A stretch of 20,002 nt of DNA from positions 1 to 20,002 of IMG/VR virus record IMGVR_UViG_3300009488_000017, one strand, 5' to 3'. How positions within the stretch are numbered: the stretch's first letter is position 1; the number at the start of each line of letters is the position of its first letter. This DNA comes from a virus. Shown piece after piece: positions 1-16,415 of this stretch. Position numbers and translations under genes: made by a program. The notes below the pieces were generated by a model. The model did no database searches. It had not been told where the DNA came from and saw nothing but the letters and a program-made list of their open reading frames with translations.

Positions 1-123
1 TGCTTATGGTAATCTAGCTTTACAAGTATTATATAAACTAGGACAAGCATGGGACTTATACCACGAAGAACAATTTGAAGAGGCAAAACAAGAAAAAATC
101 GATGATTTACAAGCAGAAATAAA
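1..123. repeat. Terminal direct repeat, left copy
   Basis: The first 123 bases are identical to 19880-20002. The repeat lies inside one open reading frame that starts at 19605 and reads across the junction into 1-157 in the correct frame. This is what an assembler leaves when it closes a circular or circularly permuted genome. A true short terminal redundancy is the alternative. Confidence 0.97.
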
Positions 124-157
124 GAGATTACAAATTGAAATAGCTAATAAAAATTAA
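1..157 (+). CDS. 3' part of two-helix membrane protein (joins 19605-20002)
   Basis: This is the continuation of the gene that begins at 19605; the first full codon in the window is at base 2 and the stop TAA is 155-157. It encodes the soluble C-terminal tail, rich in Glu, Lys and Gln with heptad-like spacing (ending LQAEIKRLQIEIANKN), probably a short coiled coil. The stop codon abuts the stop of the convergent leftward gene at 158-265 with no base between them. Confidence 0.85.
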   Translation, partial: AYGNLALQVLYKLGQAWDLYHEEQFEEAKQEKIDDLQAEIKRLQIEIANKN

Positions 158-265
158 TTAATCTTTTTTTTTATCTCTTTTTAACCATTTTATTTTTAAT
201 CCTAAATGTATAAGTGATACTACTAATGTTATAATCACACATATTAAGATCACTATCTCAGTCAT
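158..265 (-). CDS. Small single-pass membrane protein, 35 aa
   Basis: I do not recognise the family. The product has one hydrophobic helix (about residues 4-22, ILICVIITLVVSLIHLGL) after a short acidic N-terminus, and a strongly basic tail (KIKWLKRDKKKD), so the positive-inside rule puts the C-terminus in the cytoplasm. The ATG at 265 follows a perfect Shine-Dalgarno sequence, AAGGAGGTGA, at the usual distance, which makes the gene credible despite its size. It is the last gene of the leftward operon and is convergent, end to end, with the membrane protein gene that closes the structural operon. Two small membrane proteins meeting here could both act on the envelope at egress, but that is inference from position. 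Confidence 0.65.
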   Translation of the reverse strand: MTEIVILICVIITLVVSLIHLGLKIKWLKRDKKKD

Positions 266-290
266 TTGTTCACCTCCTTTTTTTTATTTT

Positions 291-452
291 TTAATACCAA
301 TATGTTTTAGTATCTAGTTCTTTTATCCTTACACTATATCTATGGATTGCAAAAGTATATTTCTCCACACTTCTTCTTATAACTGATCCATCTTTAAAGA
401 CTACACAATATTGGATTTTATTATAATGTTCAGAAATCAATTTAATTCTCAT
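291..452 (-). CDS. Unknown small protein, 53 aa
   Basis: I do not recognise this. The protein starts MRIKLISEHYNKIQYCVVFKDGS and is basic, with alternating hydrophobic residues that suggest a small beta-sheet fold (strand, strand, helix). The ATG at 452 overlaps the end of the upstream gene by 11 bases and is preceded by GAGGTAGAAAAG, a ribosome-binding stretch that recurs, slightly changed, before other genes in this operon (around 4026 and 4315). No domain or catalytic motif is visible. Confidence 0.55.
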   Translation of the reverse strand: MRIKLISEHYNKIQYCVVFKDGSVIRRSVEKYTFAIHRYSVRIKELDTKTYWY

Positions 453-885
453 CTTTTCTACCTCTTAGTTTTGCTACTTTAGTTTTATATTCATTCATAA
501 CATCCATAAAGATAGGTGCTTGTTTTTTCTTCAAAATCTGAACTATATCTAATTCTTGATCTCTTTCTTGAACATCTCTTTTTAGACTTTCTACTGAACC
601 CCGATGTACCTTATCGAATCGTGCATGATACCAAGTGCGTTTTGTCTCTAATCTATCACACCAAATCCAATAGGTCTTAGGCATATTATTGAAGTCAATA
701 GCGGGTTTCGAGGAGGAGATCTCATGCGGTGAACCATCACTTACGCTTGATGCTTGGGGAATCGAACCCACACACTCCTCTTTCTCGCTCACTATTGGTT
801 TAGGATCCATCGGAGGATGTAACCTAGAAATAGAAATATCTTGCATCTTACCAAATTTCTTTCTAATATCTTCCTCTAATGACAT
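442..885 (-). CDS. Unknown 147-aa protein with helical basic C-terminus
   Basis: I do not recognise the family. Residues 1-15 form an acidic-basic helix, 20-60 are low in structure and rich in Pro, Ser and Glu (a linker), and 65-147 look folded, with aromatic residues (TYWIWCDR, WYHARF) then a long charged helix (ESLKRDVQERDQEL). The ATG at 885 is three bases after the stop of the RHH gene upstream, with a weak GGAATGA ribosome site. The linker-coding part has a different codon flavour from its neighbours (tcg, agc, ccg, ccc) and contains a 13-base match to a tRNA T-arm (see findings), which may mean that the segment was acquired. Confidence 0.7.
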   Translation of the reverse strand: MSLEEDIRKKFGKMQDISISRLHPPMDPKPIVSEKEECVGSIPQASSVSDGSPHEISSSKPAIDFNNMPKTYWIWCDRLETKRTWYHARFDKVHRGSVESLKRDVQERDQELDIVQILKKKQAPIFMDVMNEYKTKVAKLRGRKDEN

Positions 886-888
886 GAT

Positions 889-1023
889 TCATTCCAAATA
901 AATTTTAATTATTAATCTCAATAACTTAGATAGGTCTGTATCATGTTCTTTTACCTTTAATTTGAGCTTTTCCAAATGCTTACTTGGTAAATCAAAACTA
1001 ATTTTTTCGTAACCTTCTATCAT
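889..1023 (-). CDS. Ribbon-helix-helix protein, 44 aa
   Basis: The product is a minimal RHH (MetJ/Arc/CopG type) DNA-binding protein: one beta strand (about residues 5-11, YEKISFDL), a first helix (13-27, with Leu at regular spacing) and a second helix (30-43, DLSKLLRLIIKIYL). RHH proteins act as dimers that insert the paired strands into the major groove, usually repressing their own promoter. No Shine-Dalgarno sequence precedes the ATG at 1023, but an ATAAAG box lies about 25 bases upstream, so the message may be leaderless. The start codon lies within the first unit of a 29-bp tandem repeat, a natural candidate for its operator. Family call is from the pattern; target is inference. Confidence 0.75.
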   Translation of the reverse strand: MIEGYEKISFDLPSKHLEKLKLKVKEHDTDLSKLLRLIIKIYLE

Positions 1024-1090
1024 AATTATATTCGTCAATTTCTTTATATCATAATTATATTCGTCAATTTCTTTATTGCATAATTATAAT
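1018..1090. repeat. 29-bp tandem repeat over the promoter of the RHH gene
   Basis: Two full units with period 29 begin at 1018 and 1047, and a third partial one begins near 1076. The core CATAATTATA occurs at 1021, 1050 and 1079. Each unit also carries TTCGTCAATTTCTTTAT in the first two copies. On the minus strand each unit reads as an ATAAAG box followed about 25 bases later by ATG; only the last ATG opens a real gene, the others meeting a stop within two codons. Confidence 0.85.
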
Positions 1091-1127
1091 AATACTCAAT
1101 ATTATTTAATATTATCCACTTAAATAA

Positions 1128-1226
1128 TTATCTACCATATTTGTTTTTTAATACAATTTTCATATACTCGAATGGTCTAAATAAGACTAGATGATAACAC
1201 ATGAGAAACCAGTACCAATCATCCAT
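1128..1226 (-). CDS. Possible 32-aa hydrophobic peptide
   Basis: The ATG at 1226 overlaps the TAA of the ASCH-like gene upstream (TAATG), the same linkage used by many genes in this operon. The product (MDDWYWFLMCYHLVLFRPFE then a basic tail) is aromatic and could lie on or cross a membrane. A weak purine stretch, but no clear ribosome site, precedes it; an in-frame ATG at 1238 is an alternative start. I do not recognise it, and it could be spurious. Bases 1024-1127 downstream are very AT-rich and hold only the tandem repeat. Confidence 0.35.
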   Translation of the reverse strand: MDDWYWFLMCYHLVLFRPFEYMKIVLKNKYGR

Positions 1227-1543
1227 TATCTCGGGCATACTATAGAGTCCTCTTTCTTTAAATAATAAATATAAAACTTCTCATTCTTAAAATCAATAGG
1301 TTTCTTATAGAATGATTGAAACAATCTATATGCTTCCCCTCTTGAATTACAATCTGTATCAAACATTAATTCTGTTAAGTAAATATCGGCTAAAGCTCTC
1401 TTCTCAATTCTAATAATCTTAGCTAAATGTGATCCTGATGGATAATTTTCTTTAATTATGTCACCAACTTCCCCCTTAGAATATCTTCTTATAGTTGTGT
1501 AATTTGAAACCCTTAATTTTGCATAATTATGACTATACTTCAT
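1226..1543 (-). CDS. ASCH-like (PUA-superfamily) domain protein, 105 aa
   Basis: The pattern is that of small archaeal ASCH-domain proteins: an N-terminal basic segment with YTTIRR (about residues 15-20), a Gly turn (KGEVGDII), a strand around HLAKIIRIEKRALADI, an acidic segment LMFDTDCNSRGEAYRLFQSFY, and a closing strand FYIYYLKK. ASCH domains are PUA-related beta barrels thought to bind RNA or modified nucleotides; viral copies have no settled role. It is separated from the upstream gene by 104 bp with unusual GC-rich inverted repeats, so it may have its own promoter (CATATTA about 26 bases upstream of ATG). No nuclease motif is visible. Family call moderate. Confidence 0.62.
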   Translation of the reverse strand: MKYSHNYAKLRVSNYTTIRRYSKGEVGDIIKENYPSGSHLAKIIRIEKRALADIYLTELMFDTDCNSRGEAYRLFQSFYKKPIDFKNEKFYIYYLKKEDSIVCPR

Positions 1544-1552
1544 ACTCTAGAG

Positions 1553-1650
1553 CCCGCCAAGTAATATGTCAAAAACAGTAAGAAATATAAAAAACTTATG
1601 AAAAAATATGTTGCCCTGGCGGGATTCTCCGTGGTTGCGAAATGCAACTA
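1553..1650 (-). promoter_or_regulatory. GC-rich inverted repeats upstream of the ASCH-like gene
   Basis: CCCGCCA (1553-1559) and TGGCGGG (1617-1623) are complementary across 57 bases, and a second hairpin, TGGTTGC-GAAAT-GCAACTA (1632-1650, 7 bp with one G-U), overlaps the stop codon of the gene at 1648. Between the arms lie runs of six T on the transcribed minus strand. The segment could be a terminator for the long operon, an mRNA leader structure that hides the start region of the ASCH-like gene, or both. Confidence 0.5.
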
Positions 1651-1791
1651 TTTACTCTCAAATTTACTACATTTATCACAATGATCATTTATTATTCTTC
1701 TAACCATCCTACAATATGGTAGCTCCTCCATTAAATCAGTTATATTGTTTTTAACTCTAGCTTTCATAAACCATTTACAATGATTCTTCAT
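1648..1791 (-). CDS. Small Cys/His protein, possible zinc binder, 47 aa
   Basis: I do not recognise the family. Cysteines at 5, 27, 38 and 41 with nearby histidines (H4, H37) give a HC...C...HC-x2-C arrangement that could hold one zinc. The rest is a basic helical protein (ARVKNN, MVRRIINDH). The ATG at 1791 overlaps the stop of the upstream gene (ATGA), with AGGAGG 13 bases upstream inside that gene, so translation is probably coupled. Its stop codon lies in the base of a hairpin (1632-1650). Confidence 0.6.
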   Translation of the reverse strand: MKNHCKWFMKARVKNNITDLMEELPYCRMVRRIINDHCDKCSKFESK

Positions 1792-1907
1792 TCTTTTAGT
1801 TTAGCCTCCTCAGGATATTTTTTAAAGAACTTTTCCTCACAATCCTTTGAGCAAAAACCCCTATAGATTGAGATTTGCTCATTACACATTATACATTTAT
1901 GTTTCAT
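1788..1907 (-). CDS. Zinc-ribbon miniprotein, 39 aa
   Basis: The protein has C5-x2-C8, ten residues, then C19-x3-C23 followed by a helix (EEKFFKKYPEEAKLKE). This treble-clef-like arrangement (CxxC ... GFCSxxC) resembles short zinc ribbons such as the DUF2116/MYM-type miniproteins common in archaea. Both ends use ATGA overlaps with the neighbouring genes. The last 20 or so bases, including GCTAAACTAAAAGAATGA, nearly match the end of the gene upstream (GGTAAACTAAAAGAATGA), so this stop-start module seems to have been duplicated. Function unknown; such proteins often bind DNA, RNA or another protein. Confidence 0.7.
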   Translation of the reverse strand: MKHKCIMCNEQISIYRGFCSKDCEEKFFKKYPEEAKLKE

Positions 1908-2104
1908 TCTTTTAGTTTACCCTCCCATTTCTCTTCTAATTCTTTAGGGTATTTATCATAACACCTAATATCATGTAGGAACTTCTCGATTTGTCTTTTT
2001 TTTGCTCTCTCTATTAAAACATTACAGGGGGCCACTTTTTCAAGATAATCCTTTTCCGTTATATCTCCTCGTTTAATCAATGCCTTCCAATAATTAGGAA
2101 TCAT
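1904..2104 (-). CDS. Unknown 66-aa basic protein
   Basis: I do not recognise it. It is an all-helical, charged protein (MIPNYWKALIKRGDITEKDY at the N-terminus, then a helix containing RAKKRQIEKFLHDI, ending KWEGKLKE). The two cysteines (27 and 48) are too far apart to suggest a metal site. The start overlaps the upstream stop (ATGA) and the stop overlaps the downstream start (ATGA). A GGAG lies 13 bases before the start. No motif indicates activity. Confidence 0.65.
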   Translation of the reverse strand: MIPNYWKALIKRGDITEKDYLEKVAPCNVLIERAKKRQIEKFLHDIRCYDKYPKELEEKWEGKLKE

Positions 2105-2256
2105 TCCTTTTTATCAGCTCCTTTTATCGATAGTTCAGAATATTTTACATCACATTTTTCACATTCGTAAAACCATATAATTCCCAAGTATTGGGTAATT
2201 CTATTGTCGTATTTTAAGATACTACCACATTCAGGACATTTCTCAATATCACTCAT
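2101..2256 (-). CDS. Zinc-ribbon protein, 51 aa
   Basis: A classical two-knuckle zinc ribbon: C7-PE-C10-G, then a strand-loop-strand, then C32-EK-C35. The two CxxC pairs 21 residues apart resemble the ribbons of archaeal transcription factors and of many viral small proteins, and suggest nucleic-acid or polymerase binding, but no partner can be named. It is linked by ATGA overlaps on both sides. Its own ribosome site, AAAGGAGATAAGGA, lies in the 3' end of the coiled-coil gene upstream. Confidence 0.72.
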   Translation of the reverse strand: MSDIEKCPECGSILKYDNRITQYLGIIWFYECEKCDVKYSELSIKGADKKE

Positions 2257-2807
2257 TCCTTATCTCCTTTCAGATATTTCTTTATTAATTCATTCCATTT
2301 TTGTTTTGGTGAATTAGATTTTAAATTATCAAATAACCATTTGAGGTCTGCCTTCTTAATGGGTATAAACTTCTTAGGGTTTAAACAGTATCCATCAGCA
2401 CTTAAAACATAATCTTCTGGCGGCTCTTCTAATGGTTGAGCCTTTCTTTTGTTTATCTTTGCCATTAATTCTTCGTTAAAAAGCATTATTTCATCATCAG
2501 TCATTTTAGGTTTCGATGGTGCCGGCTCTGGTTCGTCTGGTGATATCCCATGAACACTCTTATAAATACCTTCTACACGTTCTTTCAGCTCGGTTATTTG
2601 ATTTTGAAAGCCAACTTCCCAACCTCTATCAATATGTTTATTAAAATCATCTCGAAGCGAGGAAATCTTTTCATGCTCTTTTCTATGTTCTTCTGAATTA
2701 ATAATATCATCGACTTTCTTTTCCAAACTCTCGATTTTCTTTACAACTGTACTCATATTATGCTTATTTGGTGTAAATATATCCCCTACTTTCTCATCTT
2801 CAGCCAT
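2253..2807 (-). CDS. Coiled-coil protein, 184 aa
   Basis: I do not recognise the family. Residues 20-90 form a long heptad-patterned coiled coil (VKKIESLEKKVDDIINSEEH onward), followed by a Pro-rich hinge (DEPEPAPSKPK, about 90-100) and a C-terminal folded segment (about 130-184) with YVLSADGYCLNPKKF and a final basic helix. It is one of the two longest leftward genes and could be an oligomeric scaffold for neighbouring miniproteins. The ATG at 2807 is preceded by GGAGGAGATGATG and overlaps the TAA of a 14-codon ORF (TAATG). Function unknown. Confidence 0.7.
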   Translation of the reverse strand: MAEDEKVGDIFTPNKHNMSTVVKKIESLEKKVDDIINSEEHRKEHEKISSLRDDFNKHIDRGWEVGFQNQITELKERVEGIYKSVHGISPDEPEPAPSKPKMTDDEIMLFNEELMAKINKRKAQPLEEPPEDYVLSADGYCLNPKKFIPIKKADLKWLFDNLKSNSPKQKWNELIKKYLKGDKE

Positions 2808-2851
2808 TAGTCATCATCTCCTCCAAAAATTATAAATGTAAGACCGATCAT
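2807..2851 (-). CDS. 14-codon micro-ORF coupling two genes
   Basis: ATGATCGGTCTT... encodes MIGLTFIIFGGDDD. Its start overlaps the stop of the gene upstream (ATGA) and its stop overlaps the next start (TAATG); its codons GGA GGA GAT also are the ribosome binding site of the coiled-coil gene. It fills the gap so exactly that translation through it probably couples the two neighbours. Whether the peptide itself matters is unknown; chance is possible. Confidence 0.35.
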   Translation of the reverse strand: MIGLTFIIFGGDDD

Positions 2852-2988
2852 CCCCAATACCCCCCAAGATAATTTATAGTATCATGAAAAGTCTCATAGA
2901 ACTCATCATCCGACATAAACCATGCGATTTCATTTAAGATTACTACTAGTTTCATTTTTAGTCTTATTATGTTTTCATCGTCAGTCAA
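2848..2988 (-). CDS. Unknown acidic 46-aa protein, TTG start
   Basis: I do not recognise it. The reading begins at TTG (2988), which overlaps the previous stop as TTGA and has GGTGA six bases upstream, so the alternative start is well supported; the first ATG would be 11 codons in. The product (MTDDENIIRLKMKLVVILNE, then AWFMSDDEFYETFHDTINYL) is two amphipathic helices rich in acidic and aromatic residues. Confidence 0.6.
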   Translation of the reverse strand: MTDDENIIRLKMKLVVILNEIAWFMSDDEFYETFHDTINYLGGYWG

Positions 2989-3224
2989 TTTAACTCACCC
3001 CGTATATCAATTGGCTCAGGTTCCCTATAATCTTTATAACTCTCTTCACGACATTGATCCCTAAACGGACAGTCTTTTAAATCTAAATACTTAAAAAAAG
3101 CTTGTTTAGTTAGATTCTGAGCTGAGAGAAAGTTCATATCCATATTATCTTCTCCTTCTAATAGGTCTGTGGCTAACCTTAGTAGTTGCTTTCTTGCCGT
3201 ATTCATCTCTTCTTGGGTTGCCAT
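2985..3224 (-). CDS. Unknown 79-aa protein with CPFRDQC motif
   Basis: I do not recognise the family. The N-terminal half is helical (MATQEEMNTARKQLLRLATD), and a CPFRDQC motif (about residues 52-58) is followed by an acidic Pro-containing tail. CPxxxxC pairs of this sort occur in small metal-binding or iron-sulphur-linked proteins, but a single pair is not decisive. The start overlaps the stop of the RHH gene upstream (TAATG). Confidence 0.62.
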   Translation of the reverse strand: MATQEEMNTARKQLLRLATDLLEGEDNMDMNFLSAQNLTKQAFFKYLDLKDCPFRDQCREESYKDYREPEPIDIRGELN

Positions 3225-3505
3225 TAGTATTCCAACCTCCGTAGTATTTGAACTGGCTTATTACCGTTATAACCAGGTATCTTAATAAAATTTTTATTAT
3301 CTATAGTTGTTTCAATAACCTCTTCCACATATCTCTTAGTTTCATTATCCCTTTCTATCTGATTACCTACAGCACGTCTTATATATTCCGAACGTGAAGG
3401 CACTATACCCCAATCCATTAGTTTCTGAACATATTTAAGATGTTCTAAGGGTATATTGCAGGTAATTATCTTTAGTTCTCCATGCTTTGCAGTATTATAA
3501 GTCAC
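3224..3505 (-). CDS. Ribbon-helix-helix regulator, 93 aa, GTG start
   Basis: Residues 10-48 fit a CopG/VapB-type RHH: strand LKIITCNIPLEHL, helix 1 EHLKYVQKLMDWG, then PSRSEYIRRAV as the start of helix 2, where the S-R-S-E-Y-I-R-R signature is nearly canonical. The 45-residue C-terminal extension may set dimer contacts or bind an effector. The start is GTG at 3505, overlapping the upstream stop as GTGA. RHH proteins of this sort are the commonest archaeal virus regulators, so it probably tunes early versus late transcription; the operator is not identified. Confidence 0.8.
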   Translation of the reverse strand: MTYNTAKHGELKIITCNIPLEHLKYVQKLMDWGIVPSRSEYIRRAVGNQIERDNETKRYVEEVIETTIDNKNFIKIPGYNGNKPVQILRRLEY

Positions 3506-7043: not shown

Positions 7044-8681
7044 ATGGGTAGACCGTCTCGTTTCCCAGACATTAAGAAGAGTAAGCAAGAACATCCTAGA
7101 TGGAGTGATGAGAAAATAGCATTAAATATAGGTTGTAGTATGAGAACTATCCAACGCTATAATGCTAGTATTAAAGGGGAAAATATTGTCATTGATGACA
7201 AAACTAGTGTCAAAAAAATAACCAAATCTAACCTAAAAACCAATACGGAGACCAAGGGGGGAGTATCCACCTCCTCCTTAACAAAGGATATCTCTGGCAT
7301 TATAGAGCTTCCTAATCACCCTGAACTCTTACTCGATGAGTCAGCCCCTTCTAAATCGTTAAGTATGGTTGGGTTAATAGAAACTAATCTCAATCGGATA
7401 TTACAACAAGGTACTAATGATGCTAGGATACTTAATACCGCAATCTCATTCTCAGATAAAACAAGCAAATTCATAGTAAAAGATGAATCTGAAAACAGTA
7501 AGGGATTTGTTGATTATCAGGTTATTACAGAAAAGCTCACGGATAAACAATTAAACATATTTAATGCCATGATCCGGGATGGTTGGGTATCACTACTCGG
7601 TTGTCGTAAGACCGGTAAGACATTTCTAATGTCTAACGCAATCTGTTATTTGGGTTCAAGAGAGGAATTGGAGATCCATGTCCTTTCAAGCAAGAAGGAT
7701 ACTGCAAGTCATATTATCACTCAAGTTATACAAATTGATTCAAAACATAAACTTAATCTTTTTGATAGGCCTGCAAAAGAGCAAATTATTTTTAATAATA
7801 AAACCAGGATAAAAGTTCACAGTAATACGTTAGCAGATACCGGCACGTATGAGGCTGATATTCTCGTAATTGATGAAGCTCAAGAAGTTGATGAGTTAGT
7901 ATGGAGTAAGATCGTTCCACAGTTATTAACTGGACGCAAAATGCGAGTATGGATATTCGGCACAGCTAAGGCGGGAACGCCATTCTACAATTTCTGGTTC
8001 GGTCTAAATCCTAAATTTAAGAAATTTGAGTTAGGAGAAGAAGATGCTACATGGGTCCCACCAGGGTCATTTGATGCAGTTAAATCCCTGATGTCTGATA
8101 GGATGATTAGACAAGAACTAAAAATGGAATGGGTAGAACCTGAAGGGGCGTTCTTTAGGTCCGAAGATATAGAAGCCGCATTCGAGTCATATCCAGAGGG
8201 TTTTAGAAGGGATTATTTAGAAATTATATGTGGTATGGATTTTGGACAAGGTCATGAAACAGTTATGGGTAATATGGCATACAGAAAAGAACAGATATAT
8301 GAGATTGAGTCATGGGGTATGTTCAATCCTACAAGCGATATGATTCTCGCAAAAGTTAAAGAATATCATAATAGATATGCTTCTAAGTTTATCATGGAAG
8401 GATCACCATTAGGAGGTTTTGTAAGAAGGGATGTTGCAGATTTACGAGTTAAATTTAAAACCTCTAATTTTTCAGTTCATAAGGATAGATATTGGTTCGC
8501 ATTAAATTTTCTTTTAAATAATCATCTAATCCATCTTAAGACTCAAACACTAAAACAACAATTACTTCAATATGATGGGACTAAGATTGACGATGATTGG
8601 GTTGATATGTTATTACATGCAGCCTATTACTATTTTAATAAATATTACAAAAATAATGAGAAGTGGGTGTTTAATAGATGA
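7044..8681 (+). CDS. terL: Terminase large subunit with N-terminal HTH
   Basis: The packaging motor. Residues 8-45 form a helix-turn-helix (SDEKIALNIGCSMRTIQRYN) fused in front of the motor. The ATPase has Walker A GCRKTGKT (186-193), Walker B ILVIDE with D277-E278, and a coupling motif FGTAKAG (from 305). The nuclease is RNase H-like, with probable metal-binding acids D399 (GMDFGQGHE), E452 (IMEGSP) and D518 or D521 (DDDWVDMLLHAA). The length, 545 aa, is usual. No separate small terminase is seen next door, so the N-terminal HTH may recognise the packaging site, or a small gene nearby does so. The stop overlaps the next start (ATGA). Confidence 0.93.
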   Translation: MGRPSRFPDIKKSKQEHPRWSDEKIALNIGCSMRTIQRYNASIKGENIVIDDKTSVKKITKSNLKTNTETKGGVSTSSLTKDISGIIELPNHPELLLDESAPSKSLSMVGLIETNLNRILQQGTNDARILNTAISFSDKTSKFIVKDESENSKGFVDYQVITEKLTDKQLNIFNAMIRDGWVSLLGCRKTGKTFLMSNAICYLGSREELEIHVLSSKKDTASHIITQVIQIDSKHKLNLFDRPAKEQIIFNNKTRIKVHSNTLADTGTYEADILVIDEAQEVDELVWSKIVPQLLTGRKMRVWIFGTAKAGTPFYNFWFGLNPKFKKFELGEEDATWVPPGSFDAVKSLMSDRMIRQELKMEWVEPEGAFFRSEDIEAAFESYPEGFRRDYLEIICGMDFGQGHETVMGNMAYRKEQIYEIESWGMFNPTSDMILAKVKEYHNRYASKFIMEGSPLGGFVRRDVADLRVKFKTSNFSVHKDRYWFALNFLLNNHLIHLKTQTLKQQLLQYDGTKIDDDWVDMLLHAAYYYFNKYYKNNEKWVFNR

Positions 8682-9091
8682 GTGAGTTCTACGGAGAGAA
8701 GGGACCAATCACCAGGGGTGATTATGTAAAGGGAGAAGCTAAGGGTAGAGAATATATAACTCAAACGAAATTAGAAAAGCCTTATAAATATTTACTCAAA
8801 GTCCCAATTATAATGCATAATGTTTCGAGTTCTAATGTATCAAGGATCGGTTATGATCCCTCTTCAAATATCCTTCAAGTTGAGTTCCTTCCGAGTGGTA
8901 AGAAGGGATATAGAATGTATCGTTATTTTAGAGTACCGAGAGAAGTATGGAATGCCTTTACTGATGCTCATTCAAAAGGAACATTCCTATGGAAATTCAT
9001 TAGAGGTAATTATGCTTATAAAGAGGTATCTGCAGCCACATTATGGGGAACTATTGCACGATTTATAAAAAGAGTAACGAGGTACACATAA
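8678..9091 (+). CDS. KTSC-domain protein, 137 aa
   Basis: Residues about 50-118 match the KTSC pattern: SSNVSRIGYDPSSNILQVEF, then a strand-turn (GYRMYRYFRVPREVWNAFTD) and AHSKGTFLWKFIRGNYAYKE, where the ordinary family has GYDxxxxxLxVxF...YxYxxVPxxVYxxLxxAxSxGxYFnxxIxxxYxY. KTSC domains occur in many phage and bacterial proteins with no agreed function. Here the gene is locked between the terminase (ATGA overlap) and the portal (start immediately after its stop), so it is likely a head or packaging component. The C-terminal basic tail (ARFIKRVTRY) could touch DNA. Confidence 0.78.
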   Translation: MSEFYGEKGPITRGDYVKGEAKGREYITQTKLEKPYKYLLKVPIIMHNVSSSNVSRIGYDPSSNILQVEFLPSGKKGYRMYRYFRVPREVWNAFTDAHSKGTFLWKFIRGNYAYKEVSAATLWGTIARFIKRVTRYT

Positions 9092-11480: not shown

Positions 11481-12431
11481 ATGGTAGAAATTAGAGGTGT
11501 CACCGAGAGAGAATGGAAGGGAATTGATAAACAAGTAGCTCAATTGATGCGAGAGCCTATTGTATATCGAAGCCTTCCAAGTGGTCTACAAATAGGTAAG
11601 GGAAAGAATAAAGCGGAGTACTTTCAAGCAACTGATGTCTTTTATGTAAATGAAGGCAAAAGATTTGCTTATGAGGACAGAAATATAGGAGCAAGAAAAA
11701 CTAGAGATAATGCAATTACATATTTAACACTCCCAATTCATGTTGACGAAAAGGATATTGATGCTTCCAGTGGCGAAGGTATCACTCCTTTATTAGTGCA
11801 ACATGAAATAGAATGTAGAGCTAAGATGCAAGAGAGAATTCAGAAAGTTGTTCTTCATGGAAGCGATAAATCAGGCGGGCGTGGAATATGTACTTTCCAA
11901 CAAGATGAGGAGACAACCTATGCATTTGCAGCTGCAGGGGGAGTTTGGACAACTTCCGGCAATTTCCTCACGGACTTAGAATCGGCGAGAGAGCTTCTAA
12001 GAAAGGCTCACATAATGCCTCCCTACAAATTATGGATGACTCCCGGAATCTCTCCAACTCTGAGGGCGATCTTCAATGCAGTTAGTGGAATATCAGATTG
12101 GAGAACTTTTCTACAGAATTGGATGCATTTCGGAGTAATTACTGGTGAAGCGGGAAGTCAACCATTAATCCCTGCAATTAACCAAGTTATAGAAACTGAT
12201 GCACTTTATGATGGGATCTTAACCAATGCTCTACAAGCCTTCCTACTATGGAAGGATGATATTAATTGCAACTATGTATCAGAATCCTATCAAATCCACA
12301 GAGCGAATATTCCAAATAAACCATTTGAGGGTGATATAGATTATGCCCTTCGATGGGCAGGAGCCTTTATTCCTAAATCTCCTAAAGGGGCAGTTTATTG
12401 CCACACTGGAACGACAACCACAGCTTACTAA
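11481..12431 (+). CDS. Major capsid protein, HK97 fold, 316 aa
   Basis: The shell subunit. Size and order (N-arm, E-loop-like segment around residues 40-80, spine helix near LLVQHEIECRAKMQERIQKV, about 115-135, P-domain, and A-domain with a hydrophobic helix LESARELLRKAHIMPPYKLW) fit the HK97 family, near the encapsulin-like branch used by many archaeal tailed viruses (compare GSDKSGGRGI with their G-x-G-x-x-x-G-I motif). There is no obvious scaffolding delta domain at the N-terminus, in line with a separate scaffold gene. A GAGGT precedes the ATG. A hairpin and T-run follow the stop, isolating the gene for high expression. Confidence 0.85.
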   Translation: MVEIRGVTEREWKGIDKQVAQLMREPIVYRSLPSGLQIGKGKNKAEYFQATDVFYVNEGKRFAYEDRNIGARKTRDNAITYLTLPIHVDEKDIDASSGEGITPLLVQHEIECRAKMQERIQKVVLHGSDKSGGRGICTFQQDEETTYAFAAAGGVWTTSGNFLTDLESARELLRKAHIMPPYKLWMTPGISPTLRAIFNAVSGISDWRTFLQNWMHFGVITGEAGSQPLIPAINQVIETDALYDGILTNALQAFLLWKDDINCNYVSESYQIHRANIPNKPFEGDIDYALRWAGAFIPKSPKGAVYCHTGTTTTAY

Positions 12432-12975: not shown

Positions 12976-12977
12976 TA

Positions 12978-13304
12978 ATAGCCAACTATGCAGATGCAGC
13001 CGATGTACAAGCAGAAGTACCATTTACACTTGATACTAATTCCAAGCCTACTCTAACGGAGGCGGGATTGATTCAGGGCATTGCAAATGGTCTTATCAAT
13101 GATAAGATTGGCGGTGCAAAAACTGATGCAGGTGGTCTTAAAGCATTGGAAGTCAAGATTACAGTAGAGAAAATCAAGGCTGTACATGAAAAAAGAGCAG
13201 AAAATTTAAAGGATATTTGGATAGAATATAGAAGTATAATAGATAATTATAGAGAAATAGTTTCCATAGGAAATTTTCACTTCGGAAGAAATGACAGTTA
13301 TTAA
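12978..13304 (+). CDS. Head-tail connector (adaptor) protein, apparent ATA start
   Basis: The frame reads (I)ANYADAADVQAEVPFTLD, then SKPTLTEAGLIQGIANGLIN, the typical N-terminus of head-tail adaptors (M-x-Y-A-T-x-x-D-V-Q..., then pT...I...I......ID), followed by a long helix (ITVEKIKAVHEKRAENLKDI). The first ATG/GTG/TTG in frame is the TTG at 13068, which would delete this whole conserved part. A good ribosome site, GAAGGTGA (12964-12971), lies six bases before ATA 12978, so I annotate that ATA as the start (108 aa). A sequence error or real variant turning ATG to ATA is the alternative. Neighbours (tail terminator, tail tube) support the call. Confidence 0.68.
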   Translation: MANYADAADVQAEVPFTLDTNSKPTLTEAGLIQGIANGLINDKIGGAKTDAGGLKALEVKITVEKIKAVHEKRAENLKDIWIEYRSIIDNYREIVSIGNFHFGRNDSY

Positions 13305-13680
13305 TGATATTATTAGCCATTTGGATACCAATTGGAATATTGGTATAACGGCAAAACCGGCATTTATCGATGGCCATAAAGTTATCGGTGAGATTAAAGG
13401 ATTAAACTATATTCAGATATTTGATACTGGACAAGATAATGAAGATGCCGATTGTTCTGGAGCATATCAAGATGAGGAATATTCTACTCTATTACTCGTA
13501 GGTTCAAGAGATACGAAAGCGAAGCGGGATCTTATGATTACAGAAGTTAAGAGGATTTGTAAAATAATTTTAACTGGATATGATTATAATAAAATTGCGG
13601 GTAAATTAGACTTGGATCAATCCGATCTATGGCAAACTAATATTATATTTGAATTAATAAAATTTATGATAACAAAATAA
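13291..13680 (+). CDS. Tail completion/terminator-like protein, 129 aa
   Basis: The product starts MTVINDIISHLDTNWNIGIT and has an alpha-beta-beta...alpha layout with YSTLLLVGSRDTKAKRDLMI and a final helix-strand, as in tail-terminator and neck proteins. It lies between the connector gene, which it overlaps by 14 bases, and the tail tube gene, exactly where such proteins are encoded. The family call rests on layout and synteny more than on motifs. Confidence 0.62.
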   Translation: MTVINDIISHLDTNWNIGITAKPAFIDGHKVIGEIKGLNYIQIFDTGQDNEDADCSGAYQDEEYSTLLLVGSRDTKAKRDLMITEVKRICKIILTGYDYNKIAGKLDLDQSDLWQTNIIFELIKFMITK

Positions 13681-13698
13681 AATTAGAGGTAAAAAATT

Positions 13699-14742
13699 AT
13701 GGTTTATCAAGGAAAAAGTAGTTATGCGTATTGGGGTATAGAGGCAGGAGGTTTCGGACTTGGAGATACGACAAGCGATATCCACATACCATTTAACCCA
13801 ATAATAAAATTATCAATTCCAAGACCGGAATATGTAATTACAGAAGAGAAATTATGCAATGCTCTCGAAACCGGTATGGTCTATTCTGAGGAATTAAAAC
13901 CTGATGAGATCGAAATTGAAACAATATTTAGGGATCCATTTTTACTCTGTGCAGCTTTTCCTAACAAAACAGTTGCTAATCCCTGGACCGGGACCGATGA
14001 TGTAATTACCGGAGACTTTACTGTAGAACTTGATAATGATTATATTTGGGCACATTATTATATATACCATGCGACGGCACCAATTGAGAAAACTCTGAAA
14101 GGCGGCAAAATAATTTCTTATAGATTATTAATTGTAAGAAATAAGCCTATAAAAGAGATCGTAAAAATCAAATTTGCTACTATTACTGACGAGTCTGACG
14201 CAATGGATTGTGCAACTGCATTTCATGATGATTTCATTAGTGCTACTTGTGGTTGGGCATTCTGGGCAGCTAAGCGATATTATTCTCCTACTGGTGCAAG
14301 TATTAGTGTTGCAACAAGTTATATTGCGGATCCAAAAATGAAGTATGATGAGATCGAGTTTATTATCAATGTCCTAGATACTTTCGAATATGATATTAGT
14401 TCGAAAAGTGCAGCTTATACCTATCATGAGAGTAGAGAGTATATGGCTCGAATAAAAGGTAAAATAGAAGATGAGATATTGGAGACCGAGATTGAATTAG
14501 ATCCCGCTTCGAGAGTTAGAGATAAAACATTTAGACTAACTTTTGCTACTGGGATGTATCTACAATTTACTAATGCTATGTTGTTTAGTTTAACAAAAAT
14601 TGGTGATGTTGTGGCGGGAAAAGCTATAGAGCAAGAAGCGATATATAAGGGTATGCCAACACTTCTAGGAGTAGTTTCTGCATGTACGATGTCTCTAACC
14701 TATTCAATCGCACAGGATCCCGATACTATGATAACAGATTAG
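13699..14742 (+). CDS. Major tail tube protein, 347 aa
   Basis: The tube subunit. The N-terminus (SSYAYWGIEAGGFGLGDTTS) and strand-rich pattern are those of siphovirus tail tube proteins of archaeal viruses, and it precedes the chaperone frameshift pair and tape measure. The length is above the common 180-250 residues, so an additional surface domain is likely, perhaps around residues 170-230 (rich in Ala, Ser, Tyr). There is no sheath gene, so the tail should be non-contractile. Confidence 0.72.
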   Translation: MVYQGKSSYAYWGIEAGGFGLGDTTSDIHIPFNPIIKLSIPRPEYVITEEKLCNALETGMVYSEELKPDEIEIETIFRDPFLLCAAFPNKTVANPWTGTDDVITGDFTVELDNDYIWAHYYIYHATAPIEKTLKGGKIISYRLLIVRNKPIKEIVKIKFATITDESDAMDCATAFHDDFISATCGWAFWAAKRYYSPTGASISVATSYIADPKMKYDEIEFIINVLDTFEYDISSKSAAYTYHESREYMARIKGKIEDEILETEIELDPASRVRDKTFRLTFATGMYLQFTNAMLFSLTKIGDVVAGKAIEQEAIYKGMPTLLGVVSACTMSLTYSIAQDPDTMITD

Positions 14743-14754
14743 GAGGTGAAATAG

Positions 14755-15000
14755 ATGGAAAATATAGAGTATAAATTCGAAGAGAAGTTTATTGTAATGG
14801 ATTTAATAAAGGACGCAAACCCTACAATCCGTGAAGCTCTAAGAATGCAGATTAGGATGATCTCAAGAAAATTGACTGAGCCCAAGTTATCTGTGGACCA
14901 GATTAATCAAATGGACGTTAGTGAATTCAATAAACTCCAAGAAAAATTTAGTGACCAATATAACATTAAATCTGAATTGGGTTTTTTAGGGAAGAAGTAA
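14755..15000 (+). CDS. Tail assembly chaperone, short form (gpG-like), 81 aa
   Basis: The zero-frame product of the tail chaperone pair: an acidic helical protein (MENIEYKFEEKFIVMDLIKD onward) that in phages coats the tape measure during tail assembly. The perfect ribosome site GGAGGTGAAATAG precedes the ATG. Near its 3' end TTTTTTA occurs in the frame T-TTT-TTA (14982-14988), so a fraction of ribosomes should slip -1 into the longer form (14755-14988 + 14988-15245). In gpG/gpGT systems both forms are needed in a fixed ratio. Confidence 0.82.
   Translation: MENIEYKFEEKFIVMDLIKDANPTIREALRMQIRMISRKLTEPKLSVDQINQMDVSEFNKLQEKFSDQYNIKSELGFLGKK
14982..14988 (+). promoter_or_regulatory. -1 ribosomal frameshift site TTTTTTA
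   Basis: Codons GGT TTT TTA place the heptamer as T TTT TTA, the classical X-XXY-YYZ pattern. The -1 frame is open from here to 15245, whereas the zero frame ends at 15000. The tail-chaperone location is where such shifts are expected in tailed viruses. No strong downstream stem is obvious, which would imply a moderate rate. Confidence 0.82.
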
Positions 15001-15245
15001 TAAAGGCATTTAGAGAGGAATATTATCCCATAGATTTGGTACTCTTGGAAAATACATCTATTACTCTCAGAGAGTTAGATGAGATGGATTCAGAAAGAAA
15101 AATGGAATATTACTTTTTCATAGTAGAAAAACAGAAAAAAACTAGGGAAGAAATGAATAAAGAGGGTAAGAAAAAAGATACTTATAAATTTGTTAGTGAG
15201 TTTGATATAGAAGATGGAGTCATTTCAGGATCTAAAACCAGCTAA
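14988..15245 (+). CDS. Frameshift extension of tail chaperone (gpT part)
   Basis: The -1 frame continues with REEVIKAFREEYYPIDLVLL, a charged helical segment ITLRELDEMDSERKMEYYFF, and ends SGSKTS; charge pattern and Leu spacing are those of gpT-like extensions. No start codon with a ribosome site exists in this frame before the first in-frame TTG (15036), and that lacks a ribosome site, so production by frameshifting (total 163 aa) is more likely than a separate gene. It overlaps the tape measure start by 32 bases. Confidence 0.78.
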   Translation, partial: REEVIKAFREEYYPIDLVLLENTSITLRELDEMDSERKMEYYFFIVEKQKKTREEMNKEGKKKDTYKFVSEFDIEDGVISGSKTS

Positions 15246-15993
15246 GGTTGAGAAAGCCGCAAAAGAAACTAAAGGGATGTTCCAATCCATGATAGGGGCA
15301 TCATCGATGGGATCAGTACAAGCCATCATGAAGCTTATTGAACAAATAAAACCTCTCATGGCTATAATAAATATCTTTGAAGGATTAATGAAGCTACTAG
15401 CGGGAGAGGCATTCAAACCCTTAATAGAGGTTTTAAAACCAGTTTATGATATTATAATTTCCTTCATGCCACTTTTCGCAGCACTCGGCAAGATAATAGG
15501 AGTCCTTATGAGTTTCGCATTAACACCCCTTATAGCTGTTTTTAAATTATTGGATATTTTTCTAACACCTCTTATCCCCTATATTGAGGATTTCGCTGAT
15601 CTTATGGATGAATTAATGATATATATAGATCCCCTAGTAGATCTTATAGAATTGGGACTTATAGCTGCGATTGAATGGCTTGGAGAGGCGATTGAAAACC
15701 TTATCGGGTGGTTTAAAGATTTAGGTGATGCAATAGGTGGTTGGTGGGAGGATCTATGGGGGGGTGTAGGTGATTGGTGGGGGGATCTCTGGGGGGGCGT
15801 GGGTGATTGGTGGGAAGATCTATGGAGTTTTCAACATGGTACAGATTACGTTCCGCATACTGGACCATATATATTACATGAAGGAGAGAAGGTCTCAACC
15901 GCATACGAGAGTAGGGAGATGATTGGTTTATTACAAGAAATATCAAATTCTAATAGAAGAATATTAAAAGATAAGGAGTTCCGGCATAGATAA
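15214..15993 (+). CDS. Tape measure protein, very short, 259 aa
   Basis: The tail-length ruler. Residues 40-175 are long hydrophobic helices (IIISFMPLFAALGKIIGVLM and similar), residues 175-204 are a Trp-rich repeat GDWWxDLWGGV, and the C-terminus has HGTDYVPHTGPYILHEGEKV, a motif typical of tape measure C-termini (GTDYVPxTGxYxLHxGExV). At about 1.5 angstroms per residue the tail would be of the order of 40 nm or less, unusually short for a siphovirus. The ATG lies inside the chaperone extension, with no strong ribosome site, so coupling is likely. Confidence 0.85.
   Translation: MESFQDLKPAKVEKAAKETKGMFQSMIGASSMGSVQAIMKLIEQIKPLMAIINIFEGLMKLLAGEAFKPLIEVLKPVYDIIISFMPLFAALGKIIGVLMSFALTPLIAVFKLLDIFLTPLIPYIEDFADLMDELMIYIDPLVDLIELGLIAAIEWLGEAIENLIGWFKDLGDAIGGWWEDLWGGVGDWWGDLWGGVGDWWEDLWSFQHGTDYVPHTGPYILHEGEKVSTAYESREMIGLLQEISNSNRRILKDKEFRHR
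15736..15825 (+). repeat. 33-bp tandem repeat coding for Trp-rich units
   Basis: Two full units and one of 24 bases (15736-15768, 15769-15801, 15802-15825) encode GGWWEDLWGGV, GDWWGDLWGGV and GDWWEDLW. The DNA strand has G-runs at 15758-15764, 15779-15784, 15791-15797, 15801-15803 and 15812-15814, a strong potential G-quadruplex in an otherwise AT-rich genome. Confidence 0.85.
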
Positions 15994-16415
15994 TGGCTAC
16001 TCTAATAGATAATGGTTGGTTATATCTAACTAATGCTGTCGATATAATGAAAGTATATACTAAAAGAATTGTTATAGATGATAATCATCTTGATCCTTTT
16101 ATAGATCATTATGCCGGAGGTTATAATATGGGTTTTTGGTTGGGTGAGAGACAAATTATAGTAAAAGCATTAGACTTAATGTTCATAACCCAAGCTACTG
16201 CAGAAAAGTTTATTGAAAAATTAAATGCGTGGGATTATGCAGGAGCATATACGTTAAAGATTATCGTTTCGGCAACACCAACCTATTTTAAGATTGACGG
16301 AGTGAATGATTCAATTAGCGTTCTTTCTTACGGAGCTAAAGAAGCTGAGAAAGTGGAGAGAGGAGCCGGAACTAAATATAAAATTGCAATGGTAAAATTT
16401 GAAAATGCGGGATGA
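15993..16415 (+). CDS. Distal tail-like protein, 140 aa
   Basis: The product begins MATLIDNGWLYLTNAVDIMK and continues with strands (RIVIDD, RQIIVKALDLMFI) and a closing beta segment. Its place right after the tape measure and before the large adhesin is that of a distal tail or baseplate-hub component, which joins tube and fibre. The family is not recognised from motifs, so the call is positional. The start overlaps the tape measure stop (TAATG). Confidence 0.55.
   Translation: MATLIDNGWLYLTNAVDIMKVYTKRIVIDDNHLDPFIDHYAGGYNMGFWLGERQIIVKALDLMFITQATAEKFIEKLNAWDYAGAYTLKIIVSATPTYFKIDGVNDSISVLSYGAKEAEKVERGAGTKYKIAMVKFENAG

Follow-up and report, generated by a model that had tools for sequence, protein, structure and literature searches.

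One start codon, two predicted tail assembly chaperones: a probable T TTT TTA frameshift site in an unstudied group of tailed viruses

Few recoding events in tailed phages are conserved as widely as frameshifting in tail chaperone genes, and the slip site of lambda is G GGA AAG. HIV-1 gag-pol uses U UUU UUA, accompanied by a strong stem-loop stimulator. To our knowledge, proven cases of frameshifting in archaea are few, namely a single host gene and those reported for viruses of haloarchaea. Work on lambda gpG/gpGT has shown that the short chaperones are many and the extended ones few, that they bind the tape measure protein, and that the extension binds the tube protein (PMC5009743). In phage P2, a TTTTTTG slip site gives rise to gpE and gpE+E', proteins of 91 and 142 aa (PMC3091744). 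Among tailed viruses of haloarchaea, -1 frameshifting in the tail chaperone gene has been reported for HVTV-1 and HCTV-1/2/5 and predicted for Hardycor1 (PMC8211752, PMC7911831, PMC5009743).

The viral DNA analysed here, a stretch of 20,002 nt referred to below as the window, carries a gene from whose single start codon two tail assembly chaperones are very likely made, by a predicted -1 frameshift at T TTT TTA, a site best read as a programmed frameshift of the gpE/E+E' or gpG/gpGT type. Most ribosomes would stop at position 15000 and release a chaperone of 81 aa, expected to coat the tape measure protein. On a minority of ribosomes, both tRNAs would slip back one base on U UUU UUA, with the Phe and Leu tRNAs re-pairing on UUU UUU, and these ribosomes would read on in the -1 frame to produce a fusion of 163 aa, the added domain of which should serve to recruit subunits of the tail tube. 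How many copies of the 81-aa product there are for each 163-aa product would set up tail assembly around the tape measure protein. We infer the slippage and its rate in the window, and the roles of the two products are proposed by analogy with lambda gpG/gpGT and P2 gpE/E+E'.

The slip site, its two reading frames and the surrounding genes

The ORF of the short chaperone (81 aa, gpG- or P2 gpE-like) occupies 14755-15000 on the + strand, and its ATG at 14755 is preceded by a good Shine-Dalgarno sequence, GGAGGTG. Near its end the codons read TTG GGT TTT TTA GGG AAG AAG TAA TAA, with the stop at 14998-15000. Since the zero frame reads GGT TTT TTA, the heptamer T TTT TTA at 14982-14988 (+ strand) sits in the X XXY YYZ phase of tandem -1 slippage; a second site of this type, G GGT TTT at 14979-14985 (+ strand), overlaps it. 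The zero and -1 frames overlap by only 24 nt, with the heptamer inside the overlap. Counted over the window's genes, classic X XXY YYZ heptamers fall in phase at a rate of 0.0048 per codon, so that about 0.04 would be expected in the overlap, and T TTT TTA itself is found in phase nowhere else in the window among 3,684 codons counted.

The -1 extension (the T or E' part) spans 14988-15245 on the + strand. Its frame is last closed upstream by the TGA at 14973-14975 and then stays open until the TAA at 15243-15245, which gives 85 codons after the slip and a predicted fusion of 163 aa, made up of 78 zero-frame and 85 -1-frame residues. With stops at a frequency of 10.2% in off-frames, the probability that 86 codons in a row stay open is about 1e-4. 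Codon usage in the stretch is coding-like, scoring +0.195 bits/codon on a scale where the listed genes of the window mostly fall at 0.10-0.36 and off-frames reach at most 0.06; the other two frames score -0.11 and -0.12 and contain 8 and 10 stops. The first codon of the ATG, GTG or TTG kind in the -1 frame is the TTG at 15036, codon 17 of the extension. The sequence-only reading had placed TTTTTTA in this phase, with the zero frame stopping at 15000, the -1 frame open for 85 codons and a 163-aa fusion as the product; its coordinates, counts, phase and stops were all confirmed when the sequence was re-read.

Profile searches offer a suggestive likeness to Phage_TAC_7 (PF10109), the P2 gpE chaperone family, of which membership is not claimed. 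The 81-aa protein matches this Pfam family weakly (E 0.009), and the 163-aa fusion (E 0.005, 17.2 bits) and the corresponding fusion of the relative L015 (E 0.0014, 19.0 bits) both lie under the gathering score of 25 bits, while the fusion of the relative L016 gave no match to this family. The L015 fusion also matches the tail protein family PHROG 166 (E 9e-5). An AlphaFold model of the zero-frame part (helical, pLDDT 78) found no confident structural match in the PDB or among viral models.

The placement of the chaperone gene between tail tube and tape measure, proposed from the beginning, holds up with the tube identified by Foldseek, the tape measure by PHROGs and their adjacency read directly from the sequence; the order of tube, chaperone pair and tape measure is the same in L015 and L016. 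Directly upstream, the 347-aa product of 13699-14742 (+ strand) is very probably the major tail tube protein, because the best PDB matches of its AlphaFold model, itself of low confidence (pLDDT 47, pTM 0.54), are tail tube or tail tip proteins (T5 pb6, P74-26, DT57C, SH-Ab15497; E down to 1e-6). The L015 homologue gives a weak match to Phage_tube_2 (E 0.011). Downstream, the gene at 15214-15993 (+ strand), which begins before the -1 extension has ended, encodes a 259-aa protein that matches the PHROG tape measure families phrog_58 (best, E 3.5e-7), phrog_1535 and phrog_305, and its C-terminus aligns with the longer tape measures of L015 and L016. At 259 aa, as opposed to 507 and 636 aa in these relatives, the tape measure suggests a very short tail of about 40 nm, the usual ruler being 0.15 nm per residue. 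Near the end of this protein lies a tandem W-rich repeat, GGWWEDLW / GDWWGDLW, at 15737-15825. Terminase and portal genes are located upstream in the window, as is the major capsid protein gene (11481-12431), whose product matches the encapsulin models encap_f1 (E 1.1e-5) and Linocin_M18 (E 5e-5) under their cut-offs. No gene for a contractile tail (sheath) was recognised in the window.

Relatives sharing the tail module and the rival explanations

A terminase profile search of viral contigs recovered distant relatives, among which L014, L015 and L016 share the tail module of the window, with tail tubes 25-36% identical. L014 ends within the tube gene, leaving L015 and L016, both from one metagenome and with tubes 25-35% identical to that of the window, as the informative relatives. 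Searching viral contigs with one protein at a time, be it the tail tube, the product of the 140-aa gene or the tape measure, yielded no true relatives, the candidates L005 and L006 from these scans being chance matches. A capsid-profile scan of viral contigs added no contigs to the relatives already found, and tblastn searches of cultured phages with tube, capsid and fusions returned nothing useful.

In L015, the ORF after the tube ends GTT TTT TTA GAT TAG, with T TTT TTA in phase at 12122-12128, and in L016 it ends GCT TTT TTA TAG, with T TTT TTA in phase at 8530-8536. Among 7,367 further codons counted in the window, L015 and L016, the heptamer does not recur in phase. The three zero-frame (G) parts are homologues (Smith-Waterman z 5.4-10.3 relative to shuffled sequences) and share the motif KLQE. 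After the heptamer, the -1 frame is coding-like in both relatives, running for 107 codons at +0.135 bits/codon in L015 and 94 codons at +0.284 in L016, and homology between the two -1 parts is clear (z 28). To these, the window's own -1 part has no detectable similarity (z 0.4 and below), and hence its conservation is one of position, frame and coding character only. An alignment of related genomes had been proposed as the test of the frameshift, and L015 and L016 do keep T TTT TTA together with a homologous zero-frame part; among the relatives found in which this region holds the same tail module, none lacks the slip site or carries an in-frame fusion. We regard this conservation as the decisive evidence for the predicted frameshift. 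The tape measure ORF of L015 aligns with that of L016 (L015 12379-12565) well upstream of its first ATG, GTG or TTG, where an ATT after AAGGTGG is a possible non-standard start.

Both relatives also have a hairpin that begins 7 nt past the heptamer and is stabler than dinucleotide shuffles (z -3.3 in L015 and -2.1 in L016). Downstream of the heptamer in the window, RNA folding is no better than in shuffles (z 0.1 to 2.1). This missing hairpin is no strong objection, because no downstream hairpin accompanies the TTTTTTG of P2 and its relatives (PMC3091744).

These comparisons bear on three other explanations. The one that survives best, very improbable as we judge it, is that RNA polymerase slips on the T run, so that the frame already changes during transcription. 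The homopolymers present (6 T in the window and L016, 7 T in L015, and the A10 of L002 described below) could permit this, but the conserved unit is a codon-phased T TTT TTA instead of a long run, and the hairpins of L015 and L016 are set 7 nt away, as is typical for frameshifting by ribosomes. Moreover, six T is short for productive polymerase slippage.

Less probable still is an independent gene in the -1 frame, translated by re-initiation at the ATA at 15000-15002, which overlaps the stop (TAATA), or at the TTG of 15036 or 15045. An AGGG/GAAG stretch does lie upstream of the ATA at 15000 and the two TTGs are present, yet no ATG, GTG or TTG precedes codon 17 and the TTGs are without a well-placed Shine-Dalgarno sequence. 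In the relatives, the first ATG, GTG or TTG of the -1 frame stands at 12221 (L015) and 8623 (L016), deep within a frame that is nonetheless conserved from near the slip site, and re-initiation would leave the conserved heptamer unexplained. The weakest explanation is that the T6 run was misread or misassembled and the gene is truly a single in-frame ORF: homopolymers are error-prone and the source is a metagenome contig, but the same two-frame layout at the same heptamer in three contigs with about 30% protein identity, and the closing of the zero frame by a double stop (TAA TAA), make it highly improbable. Standard gene callers would overlook the -1 extension in these genomes.

Tail-module exchange and the host

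The close relatives by head genes, L002, L003 and L004 (portal 86-89% identical), carry other tail genes. For instance, the head proteins of L002 are 83-89% identical to those of the window, whereas its tail proteins are not detectably related. The tail modules compared lie at 12976-16415 in the window, 6054-10149 in L002, 6107-9358 in L003 and 5764-8321 in L004. The presence of quite different tail modules beside capsid and portal proteins that are 78-90% identical suggests wholesale exchange of tail modules among these viruses.

L002 has a 139-aa ORF just before a tape measure-like gene, with an A10 run at 8482-8491 in which A AAA AAG stands in phase; after it comes a 78-codon -1 frame that ends at 8726-8728, one base before the ATG at 8730. 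Codon usage of this extension is weakly coding-like (+0.01), and the chaperone parts of L002 have no detectable homology to those of the window, L015 or L016. The stretch 8482-8728 is a probable -1 frameshift site of its own; if it is real, the frameshift arrangement came with two different tail modules. No chaperone pair was seen in the tail modules of L003 and L004.

The sole host lead for this virus group is JAUWWH010000199.1 (L007, positions 1-3266), a contig with terminase and portal genes that is binned in a Candidatus Bathyarchaeota MAG and whose portal and terminase are 85% and 81% identical to those of the window; at 3.3 kb, it is short enough for a binning error to be possible. A search of 257 genomes of the class Bathyarchaeia turned up no longer provirus. 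Searching the same 257 genomes gave spacer-sized matches to the window in 34 other Bathyarchaeia genomes, and a check for flanking repeats placed none of the 19 such loci examined in a CRISPR array, so that the matches were counted as chance. The capsid profile found weak matches only across 398 genomes of the phylum to which Bathyarchaeia belong. A tetranucleotide likeness to the Bathyarchaeota MAG (r 0.66) was given no weight, since it lacks a bacterial comparison at similar G+C. With one short contig that may be mis-binned, no longer provirus and none of the examined matches in a CRISPR array, an archaeal host is plausible, not established.

It had been suggested that, given such a host, the window would be evidence of functional -1 frameshifting in an archaeal virus. 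The host part of this suggestion stays plausible through the one binned contig; the slippage itself is something we infer, and a precedent exists in haloarchaeal tailed viruses. That a tandem -1 frameshift on T TTT TTA is conserved in tailed viruses of Bathyarchaeia (Thermoproteota) is accordingly put forward as a tentative proposal, somewhat short of probable. If true, chaperone frameshifting in archaea would extend past the haloarchaeal viruses, and it would suggest that the ribosomes of this archaeal branch slip on the heptamer of HIV. Were the host confirmed, the site would offer a clean short sequence for testing whether ribosomes of Thermoproteota slip like bacterial and eukaryotic ones.

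Comparison with known systems

No description of this virus group was found in the literature, and reports on viruses of Bathyarchaeia (PMC10848311, PMC11705971) do not mention frameshifting. The haloarchaeal tailed viruses HVTV-1, HCTV-1/2/5 and Hardycor1 resemble the window in having a -1 frameshift in the tail chaperone gene, but they have other hosts, and the slip site of Hardycor1 is G GGA AAT; tblastn of the window's tube and fusion against a phage collection found no relation to them. Because chaperone -1 frameshifting in haloarchaeal viruses has already been reported (PMC8211752, PMC5009743), the window would not be the first archaeal case even with an archaeal host.

The heptamer is identical to that of HIV gag-pol (U UUU UUA), as the sequence-only reading also pointed out. 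Virus and genes are nevertheless unrelated, and the strong stem-loop of HIV contrasts with the window, where none is significant. Lambda gpG/gpGT differs in its slip heptamer and has no sequence similarity that we found to the window pair, but it shares the same organisation and the same inferred role. The window departs from P2 gpE/gpE+E' in that the Z base is A instead of G, the extension is longer (85 codons), the Pfam score is under the cut-off and no sheath gene is recognised. The two are alike in a gene located between tail tube and tape measure, in short and extended products, in a heptamer of the T6 type, and in Phage_TAC_7 being Pfam's weak best match for the fusions of the window and L015. 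What this unstudied virus group very probably carries is a known kind of recoding, common in tailed viruses.
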